From the NCBI GenBank assembly GCA_002205965.3, contig NADL03000037.1, positions 248,001 through 312,000 of the forward strand: a stretch of 64,000 bases of DNA. The letters are read 5' to 3'. The notes below the pieces were generated by a model, which was given only the letters and a program-made list of their open reading frames with translations, had not been told where the DNA came from and did not search any database. The stretch is from Kappaphycus alvarezii (lineage: Eukaryota > Rhodophyta > Florideophyceae > Gigartinales > Solieriaceae). The position numbers and the translations under genes were made by a program. Shown here piece after piece: positions 28,166 through 62,080 of the stretch. Within the stretch, counting starts at the first letter, position 1; every line of letters starts with the position of its first letter.

Positions 28166-28902
28166 TAAGTGTATATAGTAGCCTGTGCACCTACTCATTA
28201 CGAAAATAGAATATACGTGTATACAATATAATTACTGCTGCACAGTACTTTTATCCGTACCTGTGTGACTTCTGTTGGCAGAACTGTAATGGTTGACAGA
28301 ACTGTAATGTTTCACAAAACAAAACAGAGTCGGCACAGACTCGCAGTGACAGACGCAATCACCTCCAACTTCAGTCTTTACCTTACAAACTGAACGAACA
28401 GGCAGTATCCAGCAGAGGTACCAACAGAAAAGTGAACAACAGAGTTACGCGGACAGGCAACTAGAGAAAAAGAGTTACAATCAGCAAATCGAAACAGCCC
28501 ACAGTCACGGAACAGTGACAAAAACAGGGCAATAGGAACACATGAGTCTCAGATTAATCCCCTTGTATCTGACTCCTTGGTCTGTTGAAACTTGGTTTCG
28601 AATCTTATATAGACGAATATTTCCGGAGTTCGTCATGACATGAATGAAATTACTCGTGTTGCATTTATCCAATTCATACACAACAGAAAGCTAAGTTGTC
28701 AGCATTTCTGACGTCCTTTCACAAAGGTACACATACATAAGTGATGACTACTACTGTCAGCCAAGGAACTTGCATCATTCCCGCTTTACAGTATTACAGG
28801 AATACTGTTCAGTCCGCAGCAGTACTGTACTGTACTTTGCTGTACTGTATATTAACTTAATACTGTACAACAGTGCAATAATTCACTCACTTCAGACAGA
28901 TA
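28166..28902. other. Spacer between two transposons
   Basis: No gene seen. A dense CTGTA/TACTGTA cluster lies at 28815-28868, directly next to the TIR of the Tigger element. Confidence 0.4.
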
Positions 28903-31579: not shown

Positions 31580-31775
31580 AGTACAGAGGACTCCCAACCT
31601 TCCCATTACTCGCAGTAAACCAACCCAATTTCCGAGAACCGAGAACCATTTTTCCCCCTTTATTCTGGAGAGCAAATACAGAGGACTCCCAACCGTTCCA
31701 TTACTCGCAGTAAAACAATACCAATTTACCCAATTTCCGTATTTGCTCTCCAGAATAAAGGGGGAAAAATGGTTC
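31580..31775. repeat. Nested short direct and inverted repeats beside the hairpin
   Basis: AGAGGACTCCCAACC followed by TTACTCGCAGTAAA occurs twice (about 31580-31617 and 31679-31715). The stretch at 31645-31682 (through CCCCCTTTATTCTGGAGAGC) is repeated as a perfect inverted copy at 31738-31775. Both lie against the outer end of the long inverted duplication at 31771. Confidence 0.65.
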
Positions 31776-31812
31776 TCTGGAATACACTGTATACACAATT
31801 TCAAGTTGTAGC

Positions 31813-32970: not shown

Positions 32971-33055
32971 TTTCCGTAAAAATCAGTATGGTGACCACGC
33001 GCTGTGCTGTGCCTATGGATCCACACGCGGGTGGCGGCATAACTCGCAGACACGT

Positions 33056-33514
33056 TTGTTTGCTGCAGATCTCTCCAAAGCTGCCCGACACCCTGTCCTC
33101 GAGCCGCCACAACCCGGCCATGCAGTTCGCCCGGACATCAAGGCGCTTGGAGAGAACGGGGGCACGGACTATTACGATGTAACCGTTATCCATCCCCTGA
33201 CCCCCGCCCGCCTTCCCTCCCTGGCGCGATGCCCACTCAAGCCCCTTAACCATGCTCGCCTGGGCAAGGACACTCGCTTTGCCGAGTTGATACGTTCCAA
33301 CGGTCCTGGGCATCGCTTCATTGCCCTTCCACTCTCCACGTTGGGGGGCTGGCACCCTTCCGCTCGGGACTTCGCCAACCGGGTTGCGAATGGCATTGCC
33401 GCACGGGCAGCCGTTCCGATTGCTGATGCGCAGCGAACATTGTTCGCTCGTCACGCGGCGAGACTCGTCCAGAATAATGCCAGTTGTTTGTTAGGAGTCT
33501 TGAGCGACACTTAG
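33056..33514 (+). pseudogene. RLE-type LINE tail, copy 3 (right arm of the hairpin)
   Basis: A single 152-codon frame covers the catalytic part. HAVRPDIKALG contains the R-P-D motif and GGTDYYDVTVIHPL the following Asp-Val-Thr, the spacing of a PD-(D/E)XK-like nuclease. FIALPLSTLGGWHPSARDFA is the conserved C-terminal block. The copy lacks the zinc knuckle because the arm starts inside it. This is the most legible active-site region of the family here, together with copy 5. Confidence 0.62.
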
Positions 33515-33556
33515 GCTACAACTTGAAATTGTGTATACAGTGAATTCCAGAGAACC

Positions 33557-34510: not shown

Positions 34511-35171
34511 CTGGTTGTGGCGAGTATTCCCGCTCGCAGCCGCAGCGACAATGTATGTAGCAAGTGGTCCCCTTAGATATCCAGCATTAAATGCATCAAA
34601 AGGTCCTGAAATTTTCAGGACTCCCTGCTTTTGGGCAAGCCGTAAAAGGCCGCTTGCACTTCAGTACAGTACAGTACAGTACAGTACTGTATGGTACTGC
34701 AGGCCGCCCCCTCAAACTGTCCTGGGTTATTTACAGGGAGACACTGTGTACAGCACGGTACAGTACTGTGAAACAGAAGTCCGCTATCCGATCCTAGCCA
34801 ACTTGGCAACTGTAGAGTCTGCGCGCTTGATCGCAATTGCTGTTGGGAGGAAGCAAGTTTCTTTGGCGCCCAGTTAATAGTGACCTTCGGTAGGAATTAC
34901 ATGTATACCTGCGACCTGTGGTAGGAGGGCCAGGAAACTGCAGAGAAGATCGTACCTGCGACTTGTGCAGTTGTACAGCATTAGATCTCACCTTTTCAGT
35001 TGCATAGCACTGAGAATTAGTGATACTGTACAGTATGTACTGTAGCGGTACGCCTACGCATATTTAAGAATTCATCAGTTCCCCAGCTCATCGGCAACAT
35101 TAGACTGCATTTCACTGACCCCGATCATCGTTCCCAAGTATCTCTATCGGCAACCTCCTCTCCTCCCTTTC
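34511..35171. other. Spacer downstream of NTRC
   Basis: No gene recognised. A long TACAG run lies at 34662-34691 and further units at 34750-34770 and 35025-35043. Confidence 0.4.
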
Positions 35172-36835
35172 CTACCCAACAGGAACTTTGTTCAACAAAT
35201 CCTCCACCACCCTTCGGTATTCACTCTTCATCCTAACGCCCCGAAACTCCTTTTCTAACGCCTTCTCGTAAAATATCTGCACCGTGGGACTCCCTGTCAC
35301 TCCCGCCGCCTCAGCAATCTCTGGATCCTTTGTTATGTCAATCTCTACATAGTGCACCCTTCCCTCTAAAGACCGCACCACGGCATGCAACATCGGCTTC
35401 AACTGTCGACAAGGTCCACATCCCGGGCTCACGTATTTCACAATGAGCGGTCTCTTGCTCTCATGATACAACTTGCGCAGAGCAAATTGCCCTGAATGCC
35501 ATGTCTCGTCAATGTCGTAACTCTCCTCATCATCAACCTTACCTTCCGCCCGTCGCTCCGCCTCTGACTCCCTCTGCTCCACCTCTGCCCTCGCTGGTGC
35601 CAATCCCAAATCCTCTTCATGATGGTATTCCCTCACTAAACCTTTCGCCGTTAGATATTTTTCCGCGGCCAGTGCCGCCATACATCCACTCCCCGCCGCC
35701 GTGACAGCCTGTCTCCACTCTGAATCAGCAACATCCCCCGCCGCAAACACGCCATCCAACGGAGTTACCGGTCCCCCCTCTTTAGTCACCATGTACCCTT
35801 TGTCGTCAAACCTCAACCGACTGGTACCCCTTAGGAATCCCGTATTTGGAGTATGACCAATCGCATAAAACATACCCCTCACCTCAATTACTTCTTCCTT
35901 GCCACCCGCCCTCTTCACACGCACCCCCTTCAGCGGTGACCCGACCCTCTCCACACCATTTCCCCCCCCGCCCTTCTCCCCAAGCGCCTCCACGACAGTG
36001 GTCCCGAAATGCACTGTAACACTAGGGTGATTCCTCACCCTATCCTGCAACGTCTTACTCGCCCGCAATTCTTTTCCTCGAACCAACAAATGGACATGTG
36101 CCGCATACTTACACAAGTACACCGCCTCCTCACACGCGGAATCTCTCCACCACCCACCACGGCCAGCGACTGCCCCGCAAAGATAGGCGCGGCGCCATCA
36201 CAAATTGCACACGCCGAAATCCCGCGACTCCAAAAGGTCTCCTCCCCCGGCACCTGCAACCGCTTCGCCGACGCCCCAGTAGCCACAATGACTGCATGTG
36301 ATCGTAATTCGCCTGACATGGCGGTGGTAATACGAAAGGGAGTGGTATCCAGATCGACAGACACCGCATCATCGGAGAGCATCTCCGAACCCCATCGTTG
36401 CGCTTGTCGACGCATTTGGGACATGAGAACGGGGCCTTGAATGCCGTCCGGGAAGCCGGGGAAATTTTCGACATCTGTGGTGGTCATGAGTTGGCCGCCG
36501 GGAACGCCGGTGGTCATTCCTTCGAGAACAACTGGTTTAAGGTTCGCGCGACCGGCATAGATGGCGGCGGTGTAGCCAGCGGGACCGGACCCGATGACGA
36601 CAAGGTTTTCGACGGGGCGCGGCGGCGACGCAGTGGCAATGGGGTGGGTTGGGGGGCGGGTACGTGGGCGGGTTCGAGGGGCTGGGAGGGTCAGGGTGCG
36701 GCAGGATAGGGGGAAAGGGGTGAGGCCAAAGGCTGGAAGGGTCATTGTGAGAATTTGGACGGGGGAGGAAGGGGCGGAGGGATGCGGGAGGGTAGGGGAC
36801 GCTCCAAAGCAAAGAGGTGATCTGCTGGATTCCAC
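35172..36835 (-). CDS. NTRC: NADPH-thioredoxin reductase C (NTRC), plastid type, one frame break
   Basis: Bifunctional redox enzyme: an NTR domain fused to a thioredoxin. It passes electrons from NADPH to 2-Cys peroxiredoxins and other plastid targets. The 36835-36035 frame starts with a Ser/Pro/Arg/Thr-rich leader of about 70 residues, transit-like; M31 is an alternative start. FAD site GSGPAG lies at 82-87, [20 protein letters not shown] follows, and the redox pair is C209-A-I-C212 in CAICDG. The 36122-35172 frame holds the NADPH part ([13 protein letters not shown]), [11 protein letters not shown], the FAD motif [20 protein letters not shown], and a C-terminal thioredoxin with CGPC in [15 protein letters not shown]. 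The two frames meet near 36140, inside the Gly-Gly-Gly-(Asp-Ser) motif, where GAGA in place of GA shifts the frame. It is otherwise complete, so this could be an assembly error. Confidence 0.9.
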
Positions 36836-37536
36836 TCACGGGAGATATCAGAGATCGATGCCACTATGAATGAATGCGAGTGCCGTCGACCAACTCACCG
36901 GAAATGCAGTTGACAATGTTCACAGGGCTTGATCATTTGTTCGTTGGATAGGATTGTGGTACTACGTAGAATCGGGAAACATGCCATTGCCTTAGTCGTA
37001 GGGATTATCCCGCAAGAATTTTAATTTTGCAGTGGAATTGACGGGCATTGAACGGGTGCAAGATGGCCACACAAAACGGGTGGAGGTGAACCATTTCAAA
37101 ATGACAATTCGTAAAGTCAAGTTGGTAGACCTTTGAGCCACATGACTTGATAGGCAAAACTACTGTACTGTACAGTACTGTACTGTACAATATTAAGAAA
37201 AGTATGCTATGGCGGCAAAAACAAATATCAGTAAAGGTCTAGCTAGCGCTGTAACGAGAGGCGCAAAGTAACGTCTGGCAGAGGCTGCACAACAGTCAAA
37301 GGACCCCGTGGGTGCCCTATGGGTGCTTCGGCTGTTAGCATACGTACTGTATAGTGCTTGTGCCAAATTTTGACGTCCTATTTGGAAACATAGGGTTCAG
37401 ATTGAATCGAGATTTTTGTCTCTTGACCTTTTCAAGCTGTTGATGTTGAGGCAAAATCATGGATAATTTGCTGTATTTTTTCATCTTTTATCACTGGTGT
37501 ACAGTCCAAATGTGCAACGTTGCAAAGTACATAAAA
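36836..37536. other. Upstream region of NTRC and spacer
   Basis: No gene seen. A dense TACTGTA/TACAGTA array lies at 37161-37189, and a single unit near 37345. Confidence 0.4.
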
Positions 37537-38547: not shown

Positions 38548-38768
38548 TCACTATTTCGATTTCAATAAATCTCAAACACAAAGACCCACTTTCTGCGCAA
38601 CATTGAGAGTAGTTTCTCTTGATAGCTTACAGTAATATCACACTAAATGCATTAAAAATTTGGTTAAAAATCGATAATTTACTTGCAAAAATGGTATCCC
38701 TACTGCCAATTAGTGAATAGGAACGTAAAGTTGAGCAAATACACAATGCATGCGCAAATGCAAATTTT

Positions 38769-39182
38769 TGTCGTGAATTCCAAGGTTAAAAAGCAGAGTG
38801 GTGCTTGCGGGCGACTCTGAAAAAACAGAAGTGTTTTGGTAGCGGGGTCTGAGTTGAAGATGGAGGAATTGGTTGCTCCCTTCACTCACCGCAGTGCGGC
38901 AATCGCACTACTTACACGCAATCCCGGCACCGTCGATTAGCCCCAGCATGCGCGGGAAGTTGTGTCTACTAGGATAACAATCTTTACAGTATCCATAAAT
39001 ATTTACTGTAGTAAATATCTATACAATCTGTGGCCTAGATAGACCTGAAATATATATATATATCAATGGAATATCTACTGTATAGGTAGAGTAGAATTAC
39101 ACCCTCGTAAAAGGGTACAGGGGCGTAGAATACAGTATAGTGTAAGATGCGCGCAAGACGCATATGCGTAAATTTTTTCTAT
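38769..39182 (-). repeat. LTR (3' LTR in element orientation)
   Basis: Near-copy of 45776-46190. Both contain GGAGGAATTGGTTGCTCC, a TA-rich block around 39050 and GATGCGCGCAAGACGCATAT near the other end. Confidence 0.85.
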
Positions 39183-42100
39183 ACTCCCTCTCTCTCGCCA
39201 ATATTCTTCCTCTATTATACATCCGATCGTAGGATCCATTGTTCATCTGGTAAATCACATTTCTTTTGGAAAAGTACTCTGATGAGAGCTTCGCATTTCC
39301 CAATCTTCGTAAAACCATCAGCAGGATTGTTCGAAGGTCGCACAAAGCCGACATGACATATCTCATTCCTCTGGTACGCATGACGTACAACGCTTACGTC
39401 TATCATCGATCGTTCCTTCAAGGTTGAAGAGCACTTTGTGATCAAATCGAATAGGCTCTTAAAGTCCGTGAACAATGATAAGGGTATCTTTGTTCCCAGG
39501 ATTGATTCTAGGTCGTGCTTGATTATATAAGCCGCATCAAAAGCGTCAGCGAAGGCGTAAACTTCCGCACCTAGGACAGAACGCGTGACTCTTCGGCTTT
39601 TGAGACTCGAGTATGTCAGTACAATGCACCTGTCAGATTCGTCCGTAAGGAGCACAATGTAACTTAGTTGCGATGTGTTGTCATTATTATTGGAGAAGGA
39701 AGAGTACCCGTAAACCTTTAACCTCAGTGTGTTGAAGTCAAGATTATAGTACTTGAGAGGTACAAATGGGTCCTTCTTCACGTGCAGGACAATTCTATTG
39801 ATGCGATTAATGTCGTCTTTAGAGAACCTACTCTCAGTTACATGAGCGGCCATATTGAATGCGCCACATATCTCCGGCCCTGTGTGCGTAAGCCTGGCTA
39901 GTTTGTTTCTTAATGACCTAAAATCCGAGAATTTTCCATCAGATTCAAGTATCTTGAGACTCTTTGAATATTGGTGTTGACTGAGCTTGAAGCCAAAATC
40001 GGTTTTTGGGCTCTTACACTCGCAAATATGGTATCATCGTACTCCCTCTCTCTCGATATATAAATTTGCAAAGCGTCAGTTTCTTAAACTGATCATTACC
40101 TGTGGGTTGTTAAGCGCACACGAGCAGATCAAGGTAGAACTGTGGTTGAAATTTTGGTTGAGACTGGCTGGGTTAAGCCGGACGCTCCAAACCAGGGTTT
40201 ATATAGAACGGAAGATAGCTACAAACTAAAGGAAAATGCAGTCTAACAGTAGCGAATTCAAAGGTTTTCCCGTCAAACAGCCCTGACGGTATCGTAAGTA
40301 GCGCTTTCAGAGTTGTAGTCGGCACGAGTGACATACTCTTACAAGATGTAAGAAGTACATTGGTCCAGGCGGCATGAGATAGCAAGGCAAGTTTTGATTG
40401 GTAAAGCAATGATATAATATCCCAGTGTGCAACTCGTCCGCAACTATTCCAAGTTTACCAATGGGGTCAAACGCTGTGTTCAGAACTGTAAGGAAAGTGT
40501 AATGACAGCAAAGTGCCTAGTAGCCCTGGTTGTAAGGTTACCAGTGGTTTGAATCTACAGTACAGTAGATGCAGTGAATTAGTGTAAAGCTGTACGGTCT
40601 GTGAAGGGAAATGCAACGTTACCGCAGGCCAATGAGTCATCCACGTAAGTTCCGATCATCCCTATCAGTTCAGAATTTTCGTGTTTGGTAAACACAGAAA
40701 GATCACCGTTGGCAGGCTTCATTCCTAAGTCCTGCGTTAAGTGGAGACATATAGTCCTGTTTCAGTAGTCTCCGGAGTCCGAAAGTCCGTACAGGGGCTT
40801 AATCAGCTAAAGCAGATATCCATCAGGTATCCCGAGATCCTTAGGAGGTTTCAAGTAAAAATTTCTCAAAAGGTTTCCCTTGGACTGCGAGTACGCCTGT
40901 TTGACGTCTTGCGACCATATGTCGAATCCAAGTATCGCTGCTACGGATACTGGAATTCTCGTTGAACTTTGCCTCATAGTTGTGGCATCGTGGACTAGAA
41001 ACCTTTTTTCTTTGTCCTTGTATCCCTGACCAACAAAACCTAGCTTTCGGGTATTCCTCCTCGGTACCCATATTATTCACAGAAAGCACAAATCTTCCAG
41101 TCAATATGTTGGAGTCGGCGGGTACATCCTTTTTCAATACTTTCTTCCAAGTGCCCTTCTTAATTAGCCCTTGTAGTTCTTTATCTTTGGCTTCCCTAAA
41201 GGCTCGAGAGTAGCACCTAGGATCCTTGGGATGGAATACTTCGGTAACATGGGTTCCAATCAAGACCCCCAAGAACCCCATGTATCATCGAAGTAAGGCT
41301 TTACCTGTGCCCTAGAGTGTTGAACCTCTGATCCATTACGATCAATGAATACTTGCTTACCTTCAATACGAGTGATATCGTATGGCCCCGTTCACTTTTA
41401 TGGTCTAGCATTCTCGCGATACGCAAGTACTTTCTGTCCCTCCCTTTAACTCATGTTTTGAGGTATTTGGTATCTGGCAGTTAAATGAGGTCTGGACTCT
41501 CAATTCAGATGTTATCGTTTCCATTTCCGCCAGAGCCATCTGTAGTGCTCTCATTTGATCAGCCTGGTTTGGGAGTTGGCTATTAATAGCGGGGAATCTT
41601 AGCATAGTACCGAACACAAGAAGGGATGGAGCTAATCCGTTGGAGTTCATTGTATCATTCGTTGCTTTGATACTAAGCGTTAAGGCGAATTCAGGCTCAA
41701 CTTCTGGCTCTGAATACCTTATTTTCTGTTATACTCGGCGTAGAGGGGAATTATATCGTTCCCTTGGTCCAATGGAGTTTTGGCTCTCAATGCCCGACGA
41801 GGAAAGCTTAATTCCGCTTTCCTTCATAAGTTCCTTCTATGATCTCGATACGAATTGACTTCCCTGGTCGACGGACATCCGATCAGGGTGGCCTGTGTAT
41901 ATGGTTGACCAGCACTCAAGGAAGGCGTTCCACCCTGCCTGTGTTGACAGACTGTGCAGGAATATTGCGTTCGAAACGTGCGTTTGTGTGAAGACTACAT
42001 GCGGTACAGGTAAATTATCGAGATACGTCATATACAGGGAAATATCCTGATTGAAAACTATGCCGCTTGGTATAGTAACTTGGAACGATCTTGGCCTTGG

Positions 42101-44499
42101 CTCAAAGCGCTGGCATGTCTTGCATGACTCGCTGATCTCATCGATTAATTTACGAGTCTCAGGCGTTGCCTGCTCTGGCTTGGCTCTTGATATCAAATTA
42201 AATAATTTCCTTGCCGAGGGATGGAAGAAGTGAAGGTGGAGACGCTTCATCTGATTCCTTGTCAACAGTATCTCATTACAATACAATTCTGCGTACAGGT
42301 GTCCTCCCTTCGGTAAAATTGGATTTTTCCAATTTGCCGACTTAGATACAAGTACGTTGTCGACGTTATCGACAATCAGTTTATGAGATTCGAGTATCTC
42401 TAGTCCGATCAGTAACGATATGTTTGCATCGACCACGTCCACTTTGATGCATATGGCGCCGCCATCTGGGGTCGGTATCTTCACAGGTATTTTACCTATA
42501 CTTGTAAAAATGCCATCCCCAAATTTGAAGTGTGTGTTCTGCGGTCGTCTTTTGAATATGATTCCCACAGGTCTACAGTAGGCATTGGCTTAAGCTTTTC
42601 CAATGACCGATTTTGAGCCCCGGTGTCGAGGCACATTCCGTGAAATTGCTCCGCGCGACTCCCCATTCTGATCCTGTCGGTGATGACATTTAGTGTTTCG
42701 TACACGTTTGGATCTGAGTGGAAGATGTCCCGATTTTTCTGATCTCTCTTCATCTTTCGAGTTGGGGGGCGCAATAAAAATCCATTTTGGCGCTTTGATT
42801 CCGAATTTTTCACAGTTTGCCCTTTCGTAGGAGTACTTCGGCTTTTTTGAGTACTCCTGACCGAAAATCCTCCAGCACATTTGATAGGGAGGGGCATAGT
42901 GATCCGGAACGGGAGAATCGTGGAAAGAATTGCTCATTAAGGTTACTGGGCTCTTCATGTAAATCATCTTGTGACATCTGCCCGTCAAGGTCGTTTGATT
43001 CAAAAATCGCTATCCATGATGTCGCAAAAGAAATCTTCAGCGGACTGGGATTCATTACTTTCCGAGTCATAATCATCAGTACGATCGTCATCACTATTTT
43101 GATTATCTAGCTCGGCGCAAAGCTCAAAGAGAACCCGTTTCGAGGCCTTTACAGGATCCTTCGAGAACCTCTGTTGGTAATATTGTACCGTACGAGTAAC
43201 ACATGTGAGACAGACTTGGGGCAGTCAGATACTTTGTGCCCGGGACGACCACATCCCCAGCTGCGAAGTTTGCTAGTTTCCCCTTATTTATTTGTAGGGC
43301 GCCTATCGAAGTTCGGCCTTTGCTTGTACAGTGTCGTTGGTGTACTATGCGTTTCATATCTATGGCTCCCACGGACATTGTTGGGACGTCGAACATAGCG
43401 TCCCTGTCCATTATAGAGAGCCTCCGAAACTCTACTGCGCAGCACTAAATCAATCTCATTTACCGAAGAAAAACGAAGACTTTTCTGATCCCTCATTCGT
43501 CCCAATTTCTCTTCCTGCTCGAACTGCACGGCGGCGATCAGCTGGCCGTAGAGGGGTTGGTAAGAAAGATCACCTGTGTTTGACCGACTGCAAGCATCCT
43601 TAGTCCAGGAGTATCCAATAACAGCGGATTGAAGGTACTCCATTTTGTGCATTTCAGATCTCGCGTGTTCTGGGGGCCTGAGGTGTAAGTTTCGATATCT
43701 CTTCATGAATCCTTTCAATGGCGTCACTTACAGTGCAGTTCGGAGTAATGAAGTGGCCAATTTTTAGGCTTCGGAGGTACGACGCTATGCGGTTCTGGAG
43801 AGATGCCGAGTTTCATTCTTTGTCCAACACTTTGATGGCCTGGCGGAAGTCTTGGAAGTTTCCCTCCACATGTCGATTATAGAAACGTTTTGCGTTGTCG
43901 GTAAGGAGGTGGTGTAGGTATTGAAGGCGTTGCATCGGCGTTAAAGAATAGTACTGACAAGCATAGCCGTACTCCGAGAGATACTCACTCCTACATTCGC
44001 CTAGGACCGCAGAGAATTTCTTGTCTTCGTCTCTAAATCTCTTAGATATATAATGAGATAATTTGTCCTCAGATAGGTGACCTGAGCCCGTAGAACTGCC
44101 ACTAGACACCCTCTGATACGATTTACTTCCTGTAGACTGCGGACTACCTATAGATAAATGGGAATCAATGCATCTCAGAGCGGTCAAGAGATCAGTATTG
44201 CAGTATATAGTTGACGAAATTGTTTTGAAGAACATCCCTGACTCATTTGACACTGTGTTGATTCCCTTTGTCGTAAGGAAGGCCGAAAACCTGCGCAATA
44301 GTGTCGTATTAGATCGAATAGACAGACCAAAGAGTAGCGTAGGGGGATAGCCGGCAGAGATGAGATCCTTGAGGGCTGCACCGTTCAGAGTGGTGGCTGC
44401 CTCATAGTCACGAACACGCTCAGCAAACCCGCGCTGGACGTCATTATACTGGCCGATACCTTGGCCGAACGTCATTCTGTTTCGTATATGAAAAAAGAG

Positions 44500-45613: not shown

Positions 45614-45775
45614 TACCAGGTGTTCAAAGAATAAAAGAGGTAATCGTATGGTTAGAATTTGCAGACTTACACGTAGCTCTAAGCAACACTGTAAACCGTA
45701 ACTGATAGGTTTAGTTTCACTGAATAATGCAAAAAACTACTTTTAAAAAACCTGAAAACACGGATAAATCCGGAT

Positions 45776-46190
45776 TGTCGTGAATTCCAAGGTAAAAATG
45801 CAGAGCGGCGCTTTCGGGCGACTCTGAAAAAAACAGAAGTGTTTTTGCTAGCTGGGTCTGAGTTGAAGATGGAGGAATTGGTTGCTCCTTTTACTCACCG
45901 CAGTACGGCAATCGCACTACTTACACACAATCCCGGCACCGTCGGTTAGCCCTAGCATGCACGGGAAGTTGTGTCTACTAGGATAAAAATCTTTACAGTA
46001 TCCATAAATATCTACTGTAGTAAATATCCATAGACTCTGTGGCCTAGATAGACCTGAAATATATATAAATATCAATGGAATATCTACTGTATAGGTAGAG
46101 TAGAATTACATCCTCGTAAAAGGGTGCAGGGGCGTAGAATACAGTATAGTGTAAGATGCGCGCAAGACGCATATGCGTAGATTTTTCTAT
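45776..46190 (-). repeat. LTR (5' LTR in element orientation)
   Basis: Partner of 38769-39182. The element's transcript would start here and run toward lower coordinates. Confidence 0.85.
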
Positions 46191-46833
46191 ATTTTTCAAA
46201 TTAATACAGCACTCTCCGCTTTCCGCTTCAGTGCTTCTCCCCCTGCCATGCTACCTACAATTGGAGTTGATACAGCTGGCAGATGAGGGTGCTGATGGGG
46301 TAATGCGAGGTGTTACTGCAACCATTTACGGGGGGGGGGGGGCGGGAGCTGGTGTAATACATGAGTTTGCGGCGGGGTGGAGGTGGAGATTGTACACAGG
46401 TAATTGGGGGGGGATGGGTGCTGGGCTAGTGCGAGGTGCTGCGGGTGGTAGGTGTGGCCTGATGGGTGTCGCTTGGGGGTTTAGGCTGGGAGCTGTGACT
46501 GTGGGGTATCACTGGGAGGAGTGGCTTGGGGGGAGGGGAGGGTTGGGAGAGGTGGCAACGACGCTTGTTGCGATAAAGCGTTTGGGTTTGCTTGCGCTTT
46601 TCGCTAAGTTCGTTTCCAATGGAATAGAGGCTAATTTTTACGCTGCGGTGATGCGCGGCGCCTTCGGAGTGCAGTGGATGCATCTGAACATGTACATTAG
46701 TCAAGGCTGCGCATGACCAGAAGAATGAGCCGTAACAATCCTTATTTCATCTCCATTTCCCGCCCATTATGCCCCATAGCATCTTTAACGTCCCGAACCA
46801 GTTCTCTACTATGATGCGGTCAGACGATATATT
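46191..46833. other. G-rich spacer
   Basis: Contains a run of 12 G at 46331-46342 and a strongly G-rich + strand to about 46560. A long + open frame (46156-46716) is Gly/Ala-rich and probably reflects composition only. The minus strand is C/T-rich. Confidence 0.4.
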
Positions 46834-51760: not shown

Positions 51761-52971
51761 TGAGTGTCCTGAAAAGCTTAAGTTTCCTCGACATTTTCGT
51801 GTTACTGCTTTAATGATAGTTTACAGTGACCCACTATTTGAAATTAAAATGTAGTGCATTGCTGCCCATGTTTTGAAAAATAATGTTCCGTTCGGCAGCC
51901 CTGTACAGTACTGTACTGTGCCGTTTAGAACACTAAGAAAGAATTAGTCCTAGCTAACTATTGGTTGATGCGAAACTTGGTCTAGAGAAAAACTGGAATG
52001 AAGGCGAAACTGCACCCAAACTGTTTTTTTTAAAAAAATTCGGGATCATGTTTCGGGTTAAATAGTTGAGTTTTTTTAAAAAAACATTCTTGCATAGTTT
52101 GCAGTGTACCATATAGTTGTGTCCAAGTTTCGTTTACTCTAACCTCTTTCAAAAAGCATTTGGTGCATTCCTAATTTCGGACCTGAAACCCTGTCTTATT
52201 TGTAGGGGGACACTTTCACAATTTTTTCGGCGAAATTTTTTCGAGTTGATTTTTGCAGCTTACAGTAAATACAGTAGGGCATTTTTAGCTATATAATGGA
52301 AACTGTTTACAGCTCGCGAAAACAATTATACTGTTTCATAGTACTGCAGGCATATCCCGCACCTCCCTATACAGAACAGTGAACGTTATAGTTAAAACAT
52401 TGTGCCTGGTCTATAGTATTGTATGTACTGTACAGTACAGTACAATAGGGCTATTCTGTACAGTACTATATAGTACTACATAAAAAGTTGTACAGTACAG
52501 TACTGTACAGTTGTTTACAGTTTCGAATTTTATCGCAAGCCCAGCGCCAAATAAAATTTATTTATGTACTATTTACAGTCCTGTACTGTAGAGTAGTATT
52601 TCCCCCTTACTACTATTTTCATCCTACGTAGTCTATATTTTCTCTATCCTATTGTACTGTTAGCGATGCCTACTAGGACCGTTGTAGTGTAAGGGTCACT
52701 AGGTCCGTCCGCAGGACTATCCGTTAGGGAATTTGGTAAGTAGTTAGTAGATGTGCTAGAGATAGTCGACGGTACCTACTACCTATGAAAGTCCTAGCCG
52801 CCTTGGGCACTGAAGTAAAACAACATCAATATTTTTATTTCAACCTATGCAACTTGTCTACCTTAGGCAAAAACGACTACAGGTTTTTTCAGGCTCGCCG
52901 CTAACGGTGCCAGTCTGCTTTTTATCTCTTGAATTTTCGCGACAGTTATCCCAATCCAATTTGTATCAAGT
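51761..52971. other. Spacer rich in TA(CAG/CTG)TA arrays
   Basis: No gene. Arrays occur at 51901-51919, 52424-52443, 52457-52470 and 52489-52511, the densest in the window. Weak homopolymer runs of T and A lie near 52022-52090. Confidence 0.5.
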
Positions 52972-52996
52972 CGTCGGTGTTCCGGGAATGCTAGTT
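52972..52996 (+). repeat. Left TIR of the unclassified element
   Basis: 25 bp, inverse of 60391-60415 with two adjacent mismatches. A matching pair of this length 7.4 kb apart is very unlikely by chance. Confidence 0.75.
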
Positions 52997-53344
52997 TAGT
53001 GATCAAAAAAGGACGAAAAGAAATGACCTGAAAACCGGTGAAATTAATCAAATTTGGAAACCCAAATTTCCCAAAATGAATCCATACATTCAGATTGCCA
53101 GTTTTTCTTGGAACAGAAACTCGCACTTAACTACCCAGACTCTAGTTCCTGCACACAGAAAACTAGGACATAACTCCAATATCCCTAGTTTCACGTTCGT
53201 GAGATTGAGGATTACAAACAGCACAAATAGAATAGATGGTGAAATAGGTGGTATCCTCAGTCTATCTGTAGAAGCGATCTGGTATTACATCATCAACTAC
53301 CCCACACCCACTCCCCGCCAACACTTCCACACTGCTACAACACG

Positions 53345-54713
53345 TTGCCATCACATGCACTCCATTCCTTTCGCCGCCCATCCCCTCCCCGTGCGCCATA
53401 TTGCATACCCTTCACACCAATACACCCCGCGACGCACCGTCGTTTCCAATTCACGCATTCCCTTCCCACCATGCCACACTGCTACCTCCCCGGCTTTTCC
53501 TTCTTCGCACACAACATCCCCGCCATCCAGAGGCGCCAAAGACGTTGCCCCCATCGTCTCACCCCAAACAAACGATCCTCTCCCCCGGCCCCGGCCTCAA
53601 TCACTTCCCCCCACACACAAAGCGCCACAAGTCCACCCCAAAAACTTCCCCTTCGAAACCCCTCCAACAGACCCTCCGATAACGTCCCCCTCTCCAACGA
53701 GGACTCCTATCACCAGGACCAGTTCGCCGTTTCCCTACGAACCGAGGACGCCCTCAACATTGTCAACAGCGCCACCCCCTTAATCTCCTCCCTCGCTCCC
53801 ACCGCCCCCTCCAACCTCCCCCATCTCGAACAGCTCTTCCACTGCATATCATCCAACGCCTCAAACCTAGGCCTCCGCAAAGCAGACGGGCTCAAATCCC
53901 TCCTCACTCACCCCGTCTTCTCCAAGTCCTCCTTCCAGAATTACGTCTCCTTCGCAAAACAGTGCCTCGATATCCATAAGAACCTCTTCAACCAACGAGT
54001 CAGCTTCCACCGGCTTCTCCCGCCGCTCCATCACAGACTCCGAACACCGCTTCTCCGCCACCCTCTTCCAGAAGAACGCAATAGATGTCCTCAAACAACA
54101 ACTGTCACTCGCCCACTTCAACAACGCCTTCTTCCATCCCGTCTCCCACCGAACAGCCTCAGGATCCCCCGCTTTCGCTCATCCCAAGGCAGCGGCCCTC
54201 GGAAAGCAAGCAGTCCCCACCATCAAGGCCGCTATCATGCAGTCCTCCGAACAACAAATCGTCTGTCAAAACCCCCTCATCACCATAATCGATTCCTTCA
54301 TTGGCCGCGTCAAGGTCTACTCCGACAAGTCCTCTACTTCCCTCAAAAGCTCCTCCATCATATCATATCCGCTCCACCTCATCCTCCTCAACTTCTCCGA
54401 CTCCTTTCGCCGCAAAGTATATTCCAAAACCTCACTCTCGTCGGCTACATCCCAACCTCCTTCCAACCCACCTCACCCTCCGCAGATGGCGACCACATCT
54501 CTCAGACCTCCTCAGACATCACCCGCGAAACAAAAATGGAACCCACTCAGCTCGGACTCTCCAACCTCCTCCAGCCCATCATATGGACGCCAAGTATCCG
54601 TATGCCTTCAAGGGTCCCGAGGAGCCGCCAAGCACTCTGAAGGAGATGGTAACGGCCGGCGTATACGCGTAGGATATATCCATGATGGCGCTTCTCGGCG
54701 CGAGTGGTGCTGA
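53345..54713 (+). CDS. Unknown Ser/Pro-rich reading frame, first part of the left gene set
   Basis: Not recognised. The 431-codon frame from 53345 starts with a low-complexity region rich in Pro, Ser, His and Arg, then has a more ordered stretch (EDALNIVNSATPLISSLAPT ... HPVFSKSSFQNYVSFAKQCL). From about 54.0 kb the natural-looking sequence lies in a neighbouring frame (QKNAIDVLKQQLSLAHFNNA; IDSFIGRVKVYS) that stays open to 54713. The coding strand is strongly C/T-rich, as at the 5' ends of sufS, IRE1 and NTRC. That fits this being the start of one long gene continuing to 57.66 kb. Antisense frames exist but are short. An alternative is two separate small genes. Confidence 0.35.
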
Positions 54714-54945
54714 ACAGGGAGCAGCGAGAAGGATGGCGCCACAGAGGGCCAAAACGAAGAAGGCGGTGGAGCCGGCTGCGGAGCCGCCTATCATTATCGA
54801 CAAATCGGACTCAGGAGATGATGTGGTTGAAGTAGTTGAGTCGCTGAGGGGCCCCAAGCTGGACTTATTTGATGATAAAGACTCCGTTCCGTCTGAAAAT
54901 GTGGACGAAACTCTGGGTGTGGTGAAAATTTTGGTTTCGGACTAA
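54682..54945 (+). CDS. Unknown acidic linker frame in the TIR element
   Basis: 87 codons: a basic N-terminal part (RRMAPQRAKTKKAVEP) followed by an acidic one (IIIDKSDSGDDVVEVVES). After its stop, family-neutral but natural sequence continues in the same frame (YKLVVDIDLIQIPSKTV) to about 55.05 kb. It probably belongs to the same gene set as its neighbours on both sides. No domain recognised. Confidence 0.3.
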   Translation: MMALLGASGAEQGAARRMAPQRAKTKKAVEPAAEPPIIIDKSDSGDDVVEVVESLRGPKLDLFDDKDSVPSENVDETLGVVKILVSD

Positions 54946-55086
54946 GGCCAGTACAAGTTAGTAGTGGACATTGATCTCATCCAAATCCCAAGTAAGACGG
55001 TTCGAAGTGTGAAGATGGAGCACAAGAAGGATATCCTCAACAAGTGCAAGTAATTTGGCTAGCTTTCATCGGCGGGGTCTATTGCG

Positions 55087-56280
55087 GTGGTTCTCGTTGA
55101 CGAAGAGGAGTTAGAAGTTGGAATTTTGGGCGGAAAGTTGGTTTTAGCCGTAACCCTTGCAGATAGATACCATCGGTTCCTTGCATTGGTGGACCTCTGC
55201 GAAGAAGGGGGAAAGTGGACTGACATTGATCGTTCACTGGATGTTATCTTATGGCGGCGCAAGGAAAAGAAGACAATGACGCTGAACGAGATGCTCGCGC
55301 TTGGCAATTTGCTTAATGAAATGAGCTCAAATGTCTTGAAGATGTCGTTTGCAGACAAGATCCACAGCACTGTCTCCTTCATCGAGAACGCTCTGCAAGA
55401 CAGGTCTGTTGGGTTTGACACCGTTACTCCTTTTCAAGTAGCCGGCACTCTGAAAAGAAGTGAAGCTATAGGAGACTATAGCGTGCGACCCTTGTGTCGG
55501 TATGCGAGTCTGGGGTTGAAGTTCGCGCGAAGCGAGGGGGTTTCGGAGTTCTTTGAAAAGTTTTGCGAGGAAGGACCAGTGATTGGGTTGACATATGTTT
55601 CCAGTGACCTTCTTTTGGATCTCCCGGAGTCTGAGTTTCGCTTTGTTCTACGATGGTTGCAGTCGCGCTTGCATCTGAGAACTAGTTCGGGGGACAAGAT
55701 GGGGCGCTTTGAGGACATGCGGATGTACCTATTCCAATGTGCGATAGGTATGTTCCGCATATGCGCAGAGATTGCGACGAAAAAGAACACCAGTACTGCA
55801 AACGCCAGCCATAAAACTCCGTCTGCTCCATCTCATTCTGCAGAAGAGTCTTCCGTTATTGATGATGGGGCAAGAAACGTGAAAACCGGTTTGAATCGGA
55901 GGACTCGTAATAGGAAAGCGACAGTCTCTTTACCTGAGGTAGGCGCAGAGGGTGTTCCTAGGTATAAGATGACGACAAGAAAGAGGAAGGAGACTAATGT
56001 GGGTGGGAAAGAAGAACCTCAAGGACCTCCTTCGAAGCGAAGGGGAAGGGCTGCCGGGAGGAACGTACTGGAAGAGGCGGCAAGTGTGTTGAGGAGAATT
56101 TCGAAGAAGGAGTTGAGGAAGTTGCTGAGGGATGAATGTATCGTGGAGCTGTCGACAAGCGAGGATGAACCAGAGGTCGTTTTCGAGGAGGATAGCGGGC
56201 TCACGGGCGACGAGAAGGAAAGAAAAAACCCATGCATCTTTGAGGACAACAACCCGAAGGTTGTTTTAAGGGGTTTGTAA
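55087..56280 (+). CDS. Unknown 397-residue protein of the TIR element
   Basis: Not recognised. The uninterrupted frame has an N-terminal ordered half (GGKLVLAVTLADRYHRFLAL; SSDLLLDLPESEFRFVLRWL; MRMYLFQCAIGMFRICAEIA). The basic, Ser/Thr-rich C-terminal half (RRTRNRKATVSL, TTRKRKETN, PPSKRRGRAAGR) suggests nuclear localisation and nucleic-acid contact. It ends in an acidic tail. GTG at 55087 is listed first, but upstream in-frame sequence to about 55.04 kb looks coding too, so the true start may be further 5'. The coding strand is G/A-rich. It is separated from the next frame by 68 bp. Confidence 0.45.
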   Translation: MVLVDEEELEVGILGGKLVLAVTLADRYHRFLALVDLCEEGGKWTDIDRSLDVILWRRKEKKTMTLNEMLALGNLLNEMSSNVLKMSFADKIHSTVSFIENALQDRSVGFDTVTPFQVAGTLKRSEAIGDYSVRPLCRYASLGLKFARSEGVSEFFEKFCEEGPVIGLTYVSSDLLLDLPESEFRFVLRWLQSRLHLRTSSGDKMGRFEDMRMYLFQCAIGMFRICAEIATKKNTSTANASHKTPSAPSHSAEESSVIDDGARNVKTGLNRRTRNRKATVSLPEVGAEGVPRYKMTTRKRKETNVGGKEEPQGPPSKRRGRAAGRNVLEEAASVLRRISKKELRKLLRDECIVELSTSEDEPEVVFEEDSGLTGDEKERKNPCIFEDNNPKVVLRGL

Positions 56281-56348
56281 AGAGGTACGGAGTACTCTGG
56301 GAGTTCGGATATGTCGTGATTAAGCCTGGTGGATGCGCTGCCGAGTGA

Positions 56349-57664
56349 ATGGCCAGAAGGGGTGAATGCAGTGAAGCATCTGGTGCCATGGGTGGACGTG
56401 ATTCATTTGAGGAAGGGTCACCGTGGTTGTTTGTGGTGGAGGAGTTGAGGGGTGTGCATCATGCGGTACACTGGCGCGCTGCTCTGAATTTGCATGAAAA
56501 GCTTGGCACTACGAAGGAAGCTGTGCTGGGGGTGAAGTTGCCGGTGAAGGGGAGTCCCTCGAATGAGGAGGAGGCATTGCGGATGGCTGCAATGGAAAGG
56601 GACGACCTCGCTCGCGAGTACTTTGTGACGAAGCGAATGGAGTTGATGGAGAAAGTCTGCTGTGTCCTGGAGGACTTTGGGATGGACGAGAGGATGAGTG
56701 GAGGAGCGAAGGAGAGGGGTATCACGATTGATGAAGATGTGGCAGGGAATTTGTTGGAATTCTTTGAAGCCAACTTCATGAAGCAACCGGACTTAAGGCT
56801 GGAGGATAATAGGAAGAATTGGAATCTGATTATGAACGCCGGAGCTGTAAAAGATGATAAGAATAGGAAGCATTGGTTAGGAAGTTACATTACGACGAGG
56901 ATTGGGATTGTGGATTCTGTGGAGGCGAACGAAGAGAATTTGCTGATTGTGAATGCGAGGTTTGGGCAGATTGCAGCTGCGCTCCGGCTTTGCAACCATA
57001 GAAAGGCTGTGGAGAAGATGTATGCGCCAATAACGGGAGGGCGTGTGTTCTGTACTAGAGAGGGACGCCTGAGGCAAGTGCTACATACGGACTTTCGGGT
57101 GCTGACGGTGCCGGAGAGGGAGGCTGGAGAAAATCCTGGGTACTCTATGATGGCATCAGGGAGGAGTGCGTTTATGCTGTGGGTGTGTGAGAGGTCACAC
57201 AACTTGTACTCAACGGACGACAACAGGAGCTTGAAGAGTTTGTCTAGTGCTTTGATGGTGAGGAAGTTCCAGGTTCCGCCGTGTTCGTTCTTATTGGCAG
57301 GGGAGATGTGTTCCATGCTGGAGCGGGTTCCGAGGATGTTTTTCCGAAGGAACACTGTTTCAGGTACCATACGTACCTTGTACCCGACGGGTACAACCTC
57401 CCTGATGCGGTGCATCGAGCTCCGGCATTTCGATCTCGGTTTCTGGAGGAGGACTTTGGTCTTGGTGAAGATCCCAACGACCAACTGGACGACGAAGAAG
57501 AAATGGAGTCCGGAGATGAAGAAGAGATGGGGGATATAGAAAGGGAGGGGTTGTATGAGGAGGAGCACGAAGAGGGGAATATAGGCGGGGCACGTAATCC
57601 ATACAATACTGATGGAGATTACGAAGAGTCAGAAGGAGACCTGGTAAGAGATGAGGATAAATAG
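56349..57664 (+). CDS. 2-oxoglutarate/Fe(II) dioxygenase-like protein with acidic tail
   Basis: Frame 56349-57539 and the overlapping frame 57281-57664 carry the parts of a double-stranded beta-helix dioxygenase. RQVLHTDFRVL has the H-x-D metal pair (H246 and D248, bases 57084-57092), followed by GYSMMASGRSAFMLWVCERS. Then RGDVFHAGAGSED has the distal His (57314), and FRYHTYLVPDG an Arg (57362) at the place of the 2OG-binding Arg. The Q-x-x-H-x-D ... R-G-D-x-x-H-A-G ... R-x-H-x-Y-L pattern is one I associate with PhyH/P4H-like oxygenases of algae and large DNA viruses; that comes from memory, not a search. The tail is very acidic (DDEEEMESGDEEEMGD). The N-terminal 200 residues are unassigned helices. 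The frame changes once near 57.28 kb. Confidence 0.5.
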
Positions 57665-58216
57665 TGCGGGCTGCTGCGGCTGTACAATTGTCTAGGACGT
57701 AAAATGCTTTGTTTTGCTTTGCTAGTAATGCTTTTGGCACGATACATGTAACAATTATAGAGTTTGAGGACGGCTAGTGATGTTGAAGAAGGGATATATG
57801 AGAACTATTGTAATCGTGCGTCGCTGAGGTTAAGTTGTATGGGGGAGGGAAATTTGTTGCGCTTATGCGTGAATGTGAAACTGTCGGAGGAGGTGATTGG
57901 TGGATGTAGAAGTAGTTTATTTGTTTTGAAATGTGATCAGTCTTCTTGATGTTAGAATTGGTGTACAATTGGTTCCATGCGAGTTAGAATATCACTGAAG
58001 TTAACCAGTTCATTATGAAGAATTGCATTTGATGCTATCAAGTTTATCACGTACACTGTGTTACCAACCAAAATTGGAGTCCTCACACCGCCTAAGCCAG
58101 TTGTAGACACAAACACTGAGGCCAGTGCGGCTAGGGTGCAGGAAGGCATCCTGCTACCCAGTAGTCGGAAAGTATGTGCTGGATTTGCTAGGAAGAGAGC
58201 GTCATTAAAGGATTTA
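57665..58216. other. Convergent intergenic gap inside the TIR element
   Basis: Lies between the 3' ends of the two convergent gene sets. Short frames on both strands, none convincing. Confidence 0.3.
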
Positions 58217-58993
58217 TCATTGCCAACAAGTTAGCCTCAGAATCTTCTTTTTGCAAGATTCAGGGTCCATGGTGATCTTGTTGTTGAGAGGGAACCTCGT
58301 GACGTACGAGCTGGAGTGTGTAACTGCACACACCCACATAGCGCCTCCGGCAGAAAAGGCGACACAATTTGTCTTCAAATTGGAGGGTAGGGATTTTTCC
58401 GGAGGGAGGAATCGATGGACGATGAAGAGAATAACGTTGAATGAGACAAGAAGCGTGAAAAGCGGGGAGCCAAATTCCAGCATGGCTCGCTTTCTCCATG
58501 TGTAGCGCTGCCTGGGATTAAATGAGGTACTTTGTAGGGATCCATAGAGCGACTTCAAACAGTGAACACCTCCTTCGATTATCGGAATGTGGAGAAAGCT
58601 TTTGATGAGGCATCGAAATAAGGTGGTAATGGCGAAAGGGAGGAGGGAGTTAGGCTGCCCTGTGATGATTTGGTTTAGACAAGTGTCTATAATTCTGAAC
58701 AAGAGATTAATGGTGATTGTGAATAATCGTGTGGAGGAAAACAGTCTGTGAAAGCTGAGCATGCTTGCAAAGTGGTTTCGTTGACCAAGGGCTGCGGTGC
58801 GCTGGATGTAAGAAGCGATTTGATAGCGGCTGCTGAAGAGCTGGTTGAGGACATCCTGCTCGTTCAAGCTGGTGCGAGATGGTAACTGTACAATAGCATT
58901 ACAAATGTCGTGAATCTCATCGAGAAAGTCTCTTGTCATGTGCTTTTCAAAGTCCCTGACTTCAAAAACTTTGTGAGTTGTTAGGAGCTTCAA
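58217..58993 (-). CDS. Unknown protein with hydrophobic segments, converging gene of the TIR element
   Basis: 258 uninterrupted codons with natural composition. An N-terminal helical part (DFLDEIHDICNAIVQLPSRT) is followed by three hydrophobic stretches: LFTITINLLFRIIDTCL, LLPFAITTLFRCLIKSFLHI and LFTLLVSFNVILFIVHRFL. They could be membrane segments or buried helices. A short C-terminal part with GGAMWVCAVTHSSSYVTRF follows. No family recognised. The coding strand is C/T-rich and the frame set upstream (60082-59054) is even more so, which agrees with the 5'-to-3' composition gradient of other genes here and supports the minus strand over the short + frames. Confidence 0.42.
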   Translation of the reverse strand: MKLLTTHKVFEVRDFEKHMTRDFLDEIHDICNAIVQLPSRTSLNEQDVLNQLFSSRYQIASYIQRTAALGQRNHFASMLSFHRLFSSTRLFTITINLLFRIIDTCLNQIITGQPNSLLPFAITTLFRCLIKSFLHIPIIEGGVHCLKSLYGSLQSTSFNPRQRYTWRKRAMLEFGSPLFTLLVSFNVILFIVHRFLPPEKSLPSNLKTNCVAFSAGGAMWVCAVTHSSSYVTRFPLNNKITMDPESCKKKILRLTCWQ

Positions 58994-59053
58994 TTGTAGG
59001 GCGTTTTCGATTGTGATGAAGGTGCGCTGTGGAAGAATAATGGCTGATGTAGT

Positions 59054-60082
59054 TCATTGTATTGCTGGACCGCGTGGGATGGAGACGAGAGCGTCGTGCT
59101 GCTGCATTCTTGAGAGAGAATGTAGTTGGTACTGAACGTGAGAAGAGCTGGATAGGTACGCTTTGGAAGCAGGAGGAGGAAATGTTGGGGGGTCTCTTTG
59201 ATGGTGGTTCAGAGAGTGTAATAAGGTGCACTGAATAGTGTCAGTCAGAAAGGAGGATATTACGGTATGAGAGTCATGTTTTTGCCAGTTAAGAATTGGG
59301 TTGAACGCGGGAAATGGAGGTGGGGGTGGTCCCGAGGAAGAGTTTGTGAGGGAGATGAAGGAGCGAGTGAGGAGGAAGGGAGCTGGGTTGAAGGAGCAGG
59401 TTGATGATTTGATTGTGGAGGCGGTGAGCGAAGTGGGGGGCCTTGTGTTGAGTTTGTCATAGTTTGGGATGCCAGTGGAGGTGATTTTTATGGTTCGGAA
59501 GCGTTTGAAGATGGTTGGGAAGAAGGTGGGGATGCAAGCGGATGGGATAGTGGAATGTGTGGCGAGGGAGGTGAGGAAGGTGTGGAGGAAGAACGGGGAG
59601 CTGGAGGGGAGGGTGAAGGTGTTGGAGGAGCAGATGGAAGGGGTGGTGAGAGCGTGCGAACACATGGAGGAGATGAAGGGGATGCTGAAATAAGGAGGCG
59701 CTGAGAGAGGGGGGTTGTGAAGGGGAGGGGACGCCGATGAATGTGGTGATAGGAGGTGATAATGGTGAGGTGAGAAGTGGAAAGAAGAGGGGAGTGGTGA
59801 AAGGGTCACCGGTAGCGCCTGTAAATCGGGGGAGCCAGCTAAAGAAGAGGAGGAAAGGGCAGCGGAGGGAAGAGAGGGGTGGTGAGGATTATGTTCCGCC
59901 GCAGCTGCCGGGAGATGCGCCACTGGTGGGATTCCGTAGTGCTGCCCACGCTGCGCGTGGTGAAGAAGGTACGTTGGAGGAGCAGAAGGAGAAGTGGCTG
60001 GTAGGGATGGAGAGCCGGGTGGGGGCGAGGAAGGTGTTTTAGGGGAGAACTGTGTGCTGTACTTCTTTGAGTTGACGTTCAA
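59054..60082 (-). CDS. Ser/Pro/His-rich frame, possible N-terminal part of the converging gene
   Basis: 342 open codons dominated by Ser, Pro, Leu, His and Thr, starting about 310 bp inside the right TIR. Low complexity makes coding uncertain. The opposite strand also has plausible helical frames, notably 59469-59693 with a Lys/Glu heptad-like run (REVRKVWRKNGELEGRVKVL) that could be a coiled coil, and 59737-60042. I lean to the minus strand because genes in this window start pyrimidine-rich and because the left gene set has the same kind of leader. The choice is open. Confidence 0.3.
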   Translation of the reverse strand: MNVNSKKYSTQFSPKTPSSPPPGSPSLPATSPSAPPTYLLHHAQRGQHYGIPPVAHLPAAAAEHNPHHPSLPSAALSSSSLAGSPDLQALPVTLSPLPSSFHFSPHHYHLLSPHSSASPPLHNPPLSAPPYFSIPFISSMCSHALTTPSICSSNTFTLPSSSPFFLHTFLTSLATHSTIPSACIPTFFPTIFKRFRTIKITSTGIPNYDKLNTRPPTSLTASTIKSSTCSFNPAPFLLTRSFISLTNSSSGPPPPPFPAFNPILNWQKHDSHTVISSFLTDTIQCTLLHSLNHHQRDPPTFPPPASKAYLSSSSHVQYQLHSLSRMQQHDALVSIPRGPAIQ

Positions 60083-60390
60083 AGAGACCGAGACGCAGGA
60101 CCCGGATGCTTGAGTGGCGGGAGAAGCAAAAACGAGGTTGTTTTGTTGTTAGAATTTGCAAGATTGGTTAGTAGACGTGTGCAAATGAAGGGTTCAGCAT
60201 GAAATTAATCTTTCAGCGAATGACGGTGTAACTGAAAACTAGGGCGAAACTCCGATTTGTGAACGGGGACATGCACTGGGCGAAATTTTTGTTCCAAAAT
60301 TCGTTTGCTACGGCCTTGCAACTAGCGCGAACTCCAAAAAATGAAGATTTTCTGGATTTTGATTTTCATACATTGCAAACTAGCAGGTCC

Positions 60391-60415
60391 AACTAGCATT
60401 CCGAGAACACCGACG
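60391..60415 (-). repeat. Right TIR of the unclassified element
   Basis: 25 bp, inverse of 52972-52996. Further AACTAGC copies lie just inside at 60322 and 60378. Confidence 0.75.
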
Positions 60416-62080
60416 GTTCTAAACATACAGCTGCAGTGGAACTGGCATTAACACTCTACTGGCACTTGCAGTGTAGTATCACAGCCTAAAATGTATGACA
60501 CGCGTAGAGCCGTAAACAGTACTGTGCATGGCTCTAGGCAACTAATTATGACATCTCTGAGCATTGCAGCTCTCCTGAAAGCCGCTAAATATGGACTATA
60601 GGGGCTACTTTTTAGGTTTTTTTAAACTCTTAGAATCAAAAAGGGATTTTTTACGTTCCAAGTGTCCTCCATATAATGACTGGCTGACGGGGTCCGAGCC
60701 TCGACTTGCCGGACAAGCCAGGCCAAAACACACACACACGCACCCATCACCAATATTTCCTTGCCTCAAAGCAGAGGTATCCCTTATATTATTTGACTTA
60801 CGGTGTGTGTACCGAAGTGACTGGGGGTAATACCCATTATACTGCCGATGTCACTTGGACTTTAGGTGCGTAGATCGAAGTTCAAATGGGTCAATACCCT
60901 CAATGATTGGTCTAATTAAAACTTCATGGTTGCTGAATGGAATGGCCGGAGAACAAAGGAAAGCATTTGTGGACTCCAAAGGATCACCGCTGTACCAGGA
61001 ACTACGCCACAGGGAGAAGACTGCAGGTTTGCTAAACAGGATGGCCGAAGAGATAGGAGATGGAAGCTGTAGAGGCGACTCCCGTGTAACGAAGTACCTT
61101 CAGTACCCCCTCATTGACGAAGAAGCCGAGGGAAGGCCAGAAGATTCCGAGTCTGAACTCAACTTCTTCCGCATCGGGTCTTCTTCCTAGGCCTTTTGTC
61201 ACTCGAAACCGGACCTCCGTTCTCCGCAGTCCCCCTCTCGTCACTCTCACCGCACAACCGCCCTCGAGTCCTCTTACGAGGCTACTTTTTACTGAGCCTA
61301 GGCCCAAATAGACCTCGCCTGCACCATCGCGTTCAAGTTTGCAACGGATCGTGAGAGGCGGGAGAGGGACCAGAAAGGGAAGAAGCCCAAACTTTACTGT
61401 CTCACCTTGGATATCGAGTTTATCAGTGGGAAGCAACAGGCTATTCCACAAGGCTGGTGGGAGAATCAGAGGTAAGCAGCAAGGCTACTGGAGAGAAGGG
61501 ATTCCCCGTGATGTGCCTCTTTCGATTTCACTTTCACCCAGGAGATCGACCAACAAAAATACCTTCGCAGTAACAAGTATCGTACGAAACCTTACTTTCT
61601 AGCCGATAGAATACTTAATTAGAATCTTTTAAAGATTTTATATGTTGAGGACCAAAATGAAAAGAAAAAAACAAATAACACTGGAAACCCTTAGATAGAA
61701 GTGCGAAAACAAAAGAAATAAACCAGAGAAATCCTTCCAGTGCCTAAAAATAACTAGGTCTCATACAATGCGATGGATCGAAAGAGGTTTCTATGGTTGA
61801 GGTGCAGTTATCATTTGCGTTCAAGGTTTTTTCAGTCGCAGAAATGCAAATATTATTTTTATGATGGAGCCATTGGATTCAAAGCTCCAGTACCAGATTA
61901 ACAGAATGCATAAAACGCGCCTCTTGTGTCCGCTGTAAGGGCTTTGTTCCTCATGAAGCAAAGACGGACGTACTTGATGGGTAACGCGTGCACAGGGAGG
62001 ATGATATGTTACGTTTTTCGTGCACTTTATGTGTGTGCTAGACCACAAAGTAATTAAAAATATAGTGTTTAATCGGGTGA
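60416..62080. other. Spacer with unassigned ORFs at 60.6-61.6 kb
   Basis: The + frame 60855-61190 (111 codons) includes EQRKAFVDSKGSPLYQELRH and an acidic end, and about 61.33-61.47 kb reads RERDQKGKKPKLYCLTLDIE in another frame. Both look like former coding sequence of an unrecognised protein. The antisense frame 61032-61451 is Gly/Arg/Val-rich. A CA repeat lies at 60729-60741. Nothing recognisable between 61.6 and 62.05 kb. Confidence 0.35.

Follow-up and report, generated by a model that had tools for sequence, protein, structure and literature searches.

The stretch of DNA analysed here, referred to as the window, comprises 64,000 nucleotides of the red alga Kappaphycus alvarezii (contig NADL03000037.1, positions 248,001 to 312,000). 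Between positions 52972 and 60415 of the window, two short inverted ends enclose about five decayed reading frames (g1-g5) that occupy most of the space between them. The left terminal inverted repeat (52972-52996, plus strand) and the right one (60391-60415, minus strand) are each 25 bp long, and an inverted-repeat comparison found them to be complementary at 23 of 25 positions (92%). This match breaks off sharply on both sides, the flanks beyond the arms are unlike each other, and the ends read CGTCGG..CCGACG or, alternatively, TCGGTG..CACCGA. A 22-base core of the arms, searched with up to three mismatches, matched the window twice, i.e., at the left and the right arm, and not once in 100 shuffles, while a simple binomial estimate gives ca. 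0.0013 expected pairs of 25 bases with at least 23 matches within 8 kb. The inverse ends that a first-pass annotation had pointed out are thus present and go beyond chance. The window holds 53 inverted pairs of at least 22 nt in total, and the arm pair ranks 20th among the best 25 of these 53, many of which are CAGTAC-type simple repeats or parts of a nested pair at 31.8-33.6 kb. When the 64-kb window was compared to itself, neither the 7.4-kb element nor a portion of it recurred.

No error-free target duplication of 3-10 bp was detected at end offsets of 0-6. What can be seen is a possible 2-bp duplication, GT, directly outside the arms (52970-52971 on the left and 60416-60417 on the right) or, if the true ends start 2 bp inward, CG/CG, and a 2-bp match of either kind is weak by itself. 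Comparisons of 7-9 bp over the same offsets gave 2 to 9 mismatches, with the lowest value (2/7) at offset 6 and therefore inside the arms. Since the arms are still 92% alike, a duplication of 6-9 bp created upon insertion should have remained visible, and its absence argues against transposon classes with duplications of 6-9 bp.

Each 301-bp end of the element contains four copies of the hexamer AACTAG, as had been noted before, if the one copy within each arm is included. The others lie at 53142, 53161, and 53185 in the left subterminal region (52997-53272) and at 60237, 60320, and 60378 in the right one (60115-60390). Eight of the 28 AACTAG copies in the window thus fall into these 602 bp, where it is the most enriched hexamer (Poisson 3.8e-11), and six copies are left outside the arms where 0.17 would be expected (3.0e-8). 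As a control for having picked the best hexamer, 2000 pairs of 301-bp stretches were drawn at random. Of these, 34 held a hexamer that was at least as extreme, and the ten most extreme hexamers printed there were AAAAAA or CCCCCC. Mirror symmetry of the motifs is mostly but not strictly kept because the left end has three copies as CTAGTT and one as AACTAG, whereas all four at the right end read AACTAG. In addition, positions 53155-53180 and 60231-60256 form a direct repeat at similar depth from each end (21/26, i.e., 81%). A longer subterminal motif built from the two ends, AACTAGSRCRWAACTCC, has two exact matches, one per end. With up to three mismatches it has three matches compared to 1.57 expected, a count that is equalled in 23 of 100 shuffles, so that the motif at this tolerance provides no evidence.

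The plus strand of the region is C-rich up to ca. 54.7 kb and then G-rich up to 60 kb. The GC skew of 53-54 kb is -0.48 and that of 59-60 kb is +0.62, and it changes sign inside the element at ca. 54.7 kb. Skew of this kind makes open frames longer, and each stretch was therefore compared in ORF length to 500 of its own dinucleotide shuffles. No shuffle reached the longest frame in four stretches, and 3/500 did so for 59057-60148. Third positions of the frames as read mostly end in C for g1 and g4 and in G for g2, g3a, and g5, while g3b has no clear preference. Frames were further assessed with a codon-usage score trained on 1309 codons, all from this window, and with a composition score. In control windows, the latter found the correct frame of a SufS gene in 6/6, of a thioredoxin-reductase gene in 7/8, and of a decayed piggyBac-like gene in 4/10 cases, and is therefore weak for decayed genes. 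There was no similarity among g1-g5 themselves (best E 0.49).

Both g2 (54583-56280, plus strand) and g3 (56349-57664, plus strand) are remnants of genes that are clearly coding by codon usage and amino-acid composition, and the open reading frames listed for them in the first-pass annotation (55087-56280 and 56349-57539) do exist. g2 has in-frame stops at 54670, 54943, 55051, and 55060 ahead of an open part at 55063-56277 (405 aa), is the top frame by both scores along the gene, and had its longest frame exceeded by 0/500 shuffles. g3 is interrupted by a frame break near 57280. Taken together, the two remnants have four in-frame stops and one or more frame breaks. For g1 (53588-54440), we give a plus-strand reading with a frame change at ca. 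53995, but its strand is ambiguous: Neither plus-strand piece contains a stop and C occupies 0.61-0.65 of third positions (which a G-ending minus frame would mirror), whereas codon usage prefers the minus frame in 5/5 windows from 53212 to 54531 and the composition score is split. The strand of g4 (58217-59053; 278 codons, minus strand as read) is similarly ambiguous, as the minus frame is stop-free and as long a frame occurred in 0/500 shuffles, yet plus frame 2 scores slightly above it despite three to seven stops per 450-bp window.

The last frame, g5 (59310-60111, plus strand), consists of pieces at 59310-59693 and 59737-60042 and a final one up to ca. 60111, and these appear by eye to read like a coiled coil. 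Plus frames 0 and then 1 rank first by composition in 7/7 windows from 58972 to 60321 and also by codon usage in 59212-60291, with G at 0.55-0.67 of third positions. Against this stands the stop-free minus frame at 59057-60148, which is more likely a shadow because the plus frames score best and look coiled-coil-like, even though the mere 3/500 shuffles that reach its length speak against outright dismissal. The two convergent sets of frames proposed at first thus find little backing, with the strand being open or different in three of five frames when codon usage, stops, and composition are considered. A convergent gene layout is doubtful since 59.3-60.1 kb favours the plus strand and the strands of g1 and g4 are ambiguous.

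Fe(II)/2-oxoglutarate dioxygenases share an HxD...H...R motif on a double-stranded beta-helix fold. By eye, g3 contains HTDF at 57084, GDVFHAG at 57302, and RYHTYL at 57362, and we take the order and spacing of these motifs to recall this family, which makes g3 a candidate. However, the motif halves sit in different frames across the break near 57280, and no profile reaches its cut-off, so the oxygenase-like domain of the first-pass annotation becomes a lead and not a finding. The joined oxygenase piece of g3 had no Pfam match up to E 10 and only a coatomer at 0.14 when compared to the PDB by sequence, and no TET/JBP profile matched in g3. Two single-sequence structure models were useless, with a mean pLDDT of 34.0 for 56349-57536 (a model lacking the correctly framed second half) and of 37.0 for the other. 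When relatives of the joined region were sought in genome contigs, 115 stretches matched the pattern and none was confirmed. In viral contigs, a degenerate GDxxHAGA pattern matched at least 120 stretches, and the frames surrounding those listed were without family likeness; three weak tblastn matches to the g3 region among the 80 listed (E 0.032, 0.082, and 0.22) were not accepted as relatives. A Rieske domain in the frame starting at 56349 was rejected as well; its Pfam score of 12.8 bits (E 0.11) falls short of the cut-off, 20.3.

Scanning all six frames against Pfam, with X in place of stop codons, found no transposase, matching the earlier impression that none of the frames resembles one, though searches with decayed single sequences miss distant families. 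Eight frames, including the one that starts at 56349, had no Pfam match at the curated cut-off, and seven frames searched against PHROGs and NCBIfam gave nothing better than E 0.08 (for PHROGs, nothing better than E 0.19). The weakest frame E-values across Pfam, PHROGs, and NCBIfam (0.05-0.3) are noise. Sequence comparison of g2 and g3 to the PDB also yielded no match. Protein patterns matched one stretch for g3, eight for g2, seven for g4, and eight for g1 in viral contigs without any being confirmed, the arm pattern matched 0 stretches there, and no relatives of the element's frames were found in viral or prokaryotic contigs. A literature search with most subscription papers and Repbase outside its scope returned no description of this element. 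Given that the genes are decayed, the unrecognised transposase may have rotted, may have been lost, or may act in trans.

In our view, the locus is best explained as a DNA transposon of class II that is bounded by terminal inverted repeats (23/25 over 25 bp) and carries subterminal motifs. This part of the original interpretation stands. The further step of placing it in a new or little-known group of mobile elements is unsupported, given the four stops and the frame break or breaks that interrupt its two best frames. Specifically, we suggest that this copy of a multi-gene element of ca. 7.4 kb, possibly CACTA/EnSpm-like, is dead or lacks a transposase, a reading to which we assign a probability of roughly 0.55. 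The presence of other transposon genes in the window (DDE_Tnp_1_7, DDE_Tnp_4, and Plant_tran) speaks for a transposon, whereas its single copy there and the fact that inverted pairs this long are not rare, if simple repeats are counted, speak against it.

Such an element would once have carried several genes. In working relatives, the 25-bp inverted repeats and the AACTAG motifs within the ends would serve as binding sites for a transposase, which would join the ends, excise the element, and reinsert it by cut-and-paste with a target duplication no longer than 2 bp. This enzyme might be encoded by an unrecognised decayed frame of the element itself or be supplied in trans by another copy. The remaining genes would be accessory, and one may have encoded a dioxygenase of the Fe(II)/2-oxoglutarate type acting on DNA or chromatin that might weaken silencing, by analogy with what is proposed for the TET/JBP enzymes of fungal transposons (PMC12730594).

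Less probable is that the locus belongs to CACTA/EnSpm proper as a decayed or rearranged copy of a large multi-ORF family of red algae whose transposase was lost or is too decayed. CACTA elements carry subterminal repeats, and the AACTAG enrichment beside short inverted ends agrees with this feature. CACTA/EnSpm (CMCT) elements are further described to have CAC..GTG or CA..TG termini and to generate duplications of 2 to 5 bp (PMC12730594). The GT/GT or CG/CG seen here would fit the lower end of this range, as a 2-bp match that is weak alone, but neither CGTCGG..CCGACG nor TCGGTG..CACCGA corresponds to these termini, and no profile of an EnSpm DDE transposase with C(2)C and H(3-4)H motifs matched in six frames. 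Because of these termini and the missing transposase, we did not file the element under CACTA/EnSpm. The closest precedent are enlarged En/Spm families of 16-20 kb with four to five ORFs that are described in Chondrus crispus (PMC6431247). They share short inverted ends, dense subterminal motifs, a duplication compatible with at most 2 bp, and several ORFs with our element, which differs from them by its size of ca. 7.4 kb, by ends other than CA..TG, and by having no recognisable transposase. For Chondrus, 1181 entries of Repbase are listed in PMC4455052.

Inverted ends are also found in hAT, Mutator, and KDZ (Zisupton/Kyakuja/Dileera) transposons. Of these, hAT and Mutator carry subterminal motifs, and Mutator creates target duplications of about 9 bp. 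Duplications of usually 8 bp for hAT and of 7-8 bp for KDZ are described in PMC12730594. Unlike these groups, our element shows no 7-9 bp duplication at its ends and no match to a transposase profile.

It is unlikely that the element represents a new superfamily of DNA transposons with g1, g2, g4, or g5 as its unrecognised transposase. Such a scenario would suit the clearly coding g2 and g3, neither of which matched the PDB, and frames without meaningful matches in Pfam, PHROGs, or NCBIfam, but broken frames searched as single sequences would let distant transposases be missed, and no relatives were found for building profiles. We regard it as improbable that chance or unrelated inverted repeats merely surround decayed host or viral genes without forming one element, as the single copy, the 53 inverted pairs, and the 34/2000 random pairs with an equally enriched hexamer might suggest, because the arms match closely at low chance expectation, are not simple repeats, and coincide at the same two places with an independent motif enrichment.

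Returning to the preferred reading of a dead or transposase-less multi-gene element, its candidate dioxygenase can be compared to fungal cases in which a TET/JBP dioxygenase is carried by transposons of many classes (Kojima 2025, PMC12730594). The likeness lies in an extra gene, here for a candidate dioxygenase, on an element like a DNA transposon, and the differences from the cases described there are a domain at the level of motifs, no TET/JBP profile match, an algal host, and no transposase seen. The odds are slim that we see one dead copy of an algal DNA-transposon lineage with an undescribed transposase and an anti-silencing accessory dioxygenase outside TET/JBP. We see in the element an unproven addition to a kind already known, and it is only slightly likely that it marks a new lineage. 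If intact copies exist, they would show greater variety among the enlarged multi-gene DNA transposons of red algae than is listed, or else the existence of an unrecognised transposase. Finding a dioxygenase in an element of this type beyond the fungi would, if true, suggest that transposons of at least two kingdoms have armed themselves to resist silencing. A single decayed copy reveals the ends of an element and little about its machinery. An integrated red-algal plasmid was considered as a further reading; for Chondrus, PMC4814812 reports that there is none, and its passages on the subject show no inverted repeat.

Elsewhere in the window, a class-V aminotransferase gene of the SufS type lies at 1275-2771. 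A thioredoxin-reductase frame at 36038-36835 (minus strand) continues to 35175 in another frame and ends with a CGPC thioredoxin-like motif, and the whole (35175-36835) presumably resembles the plastid NTRC fusion, with the change of frame being due to an intron, an error, or a mutation. Together with the SufS gene, this frame hints at a photosynthetic eukaryote that has few introns. Transposase remnants are found at 15121-17185 (minus strand, DDE_Tnp_1_7), 22675-23607 (plus strand, DDE_Tnp_4), and 25838-26584 (plus strand, Plant_tran), of which we take the first to be of the piggyBac type and the other two of the Harbinger type. Direct repeats of about 417 bp at 38768-39183 and 45775-46191 (93.8% identical) enclose an H2C2 integrase-like frame at 41840-42589 (E 0.0036, below the Pfam cut-off), and this arrangement of about 7.4 kb looks like an LTR retrotransposon. 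Shorter direct repeats of 183 bp at 9930-10112 and 14222-14404 (86.9% identical, ca. 4.3 kb apart) may be LTRs that belong to a small retrotransposon. An inverted pair of about 578 bp at 31771-32347 and 32982-33556 (99% identical, ca. 630 bp apart) either arose from a large, recent inverted duplication or is an artefact of the assembly. Finally, palindromic simple repeats of the type GTACAGTAC/CAGTACTG are scattered at 28820-28847, 34662-34702, 37160-37190, and 52425-52521.
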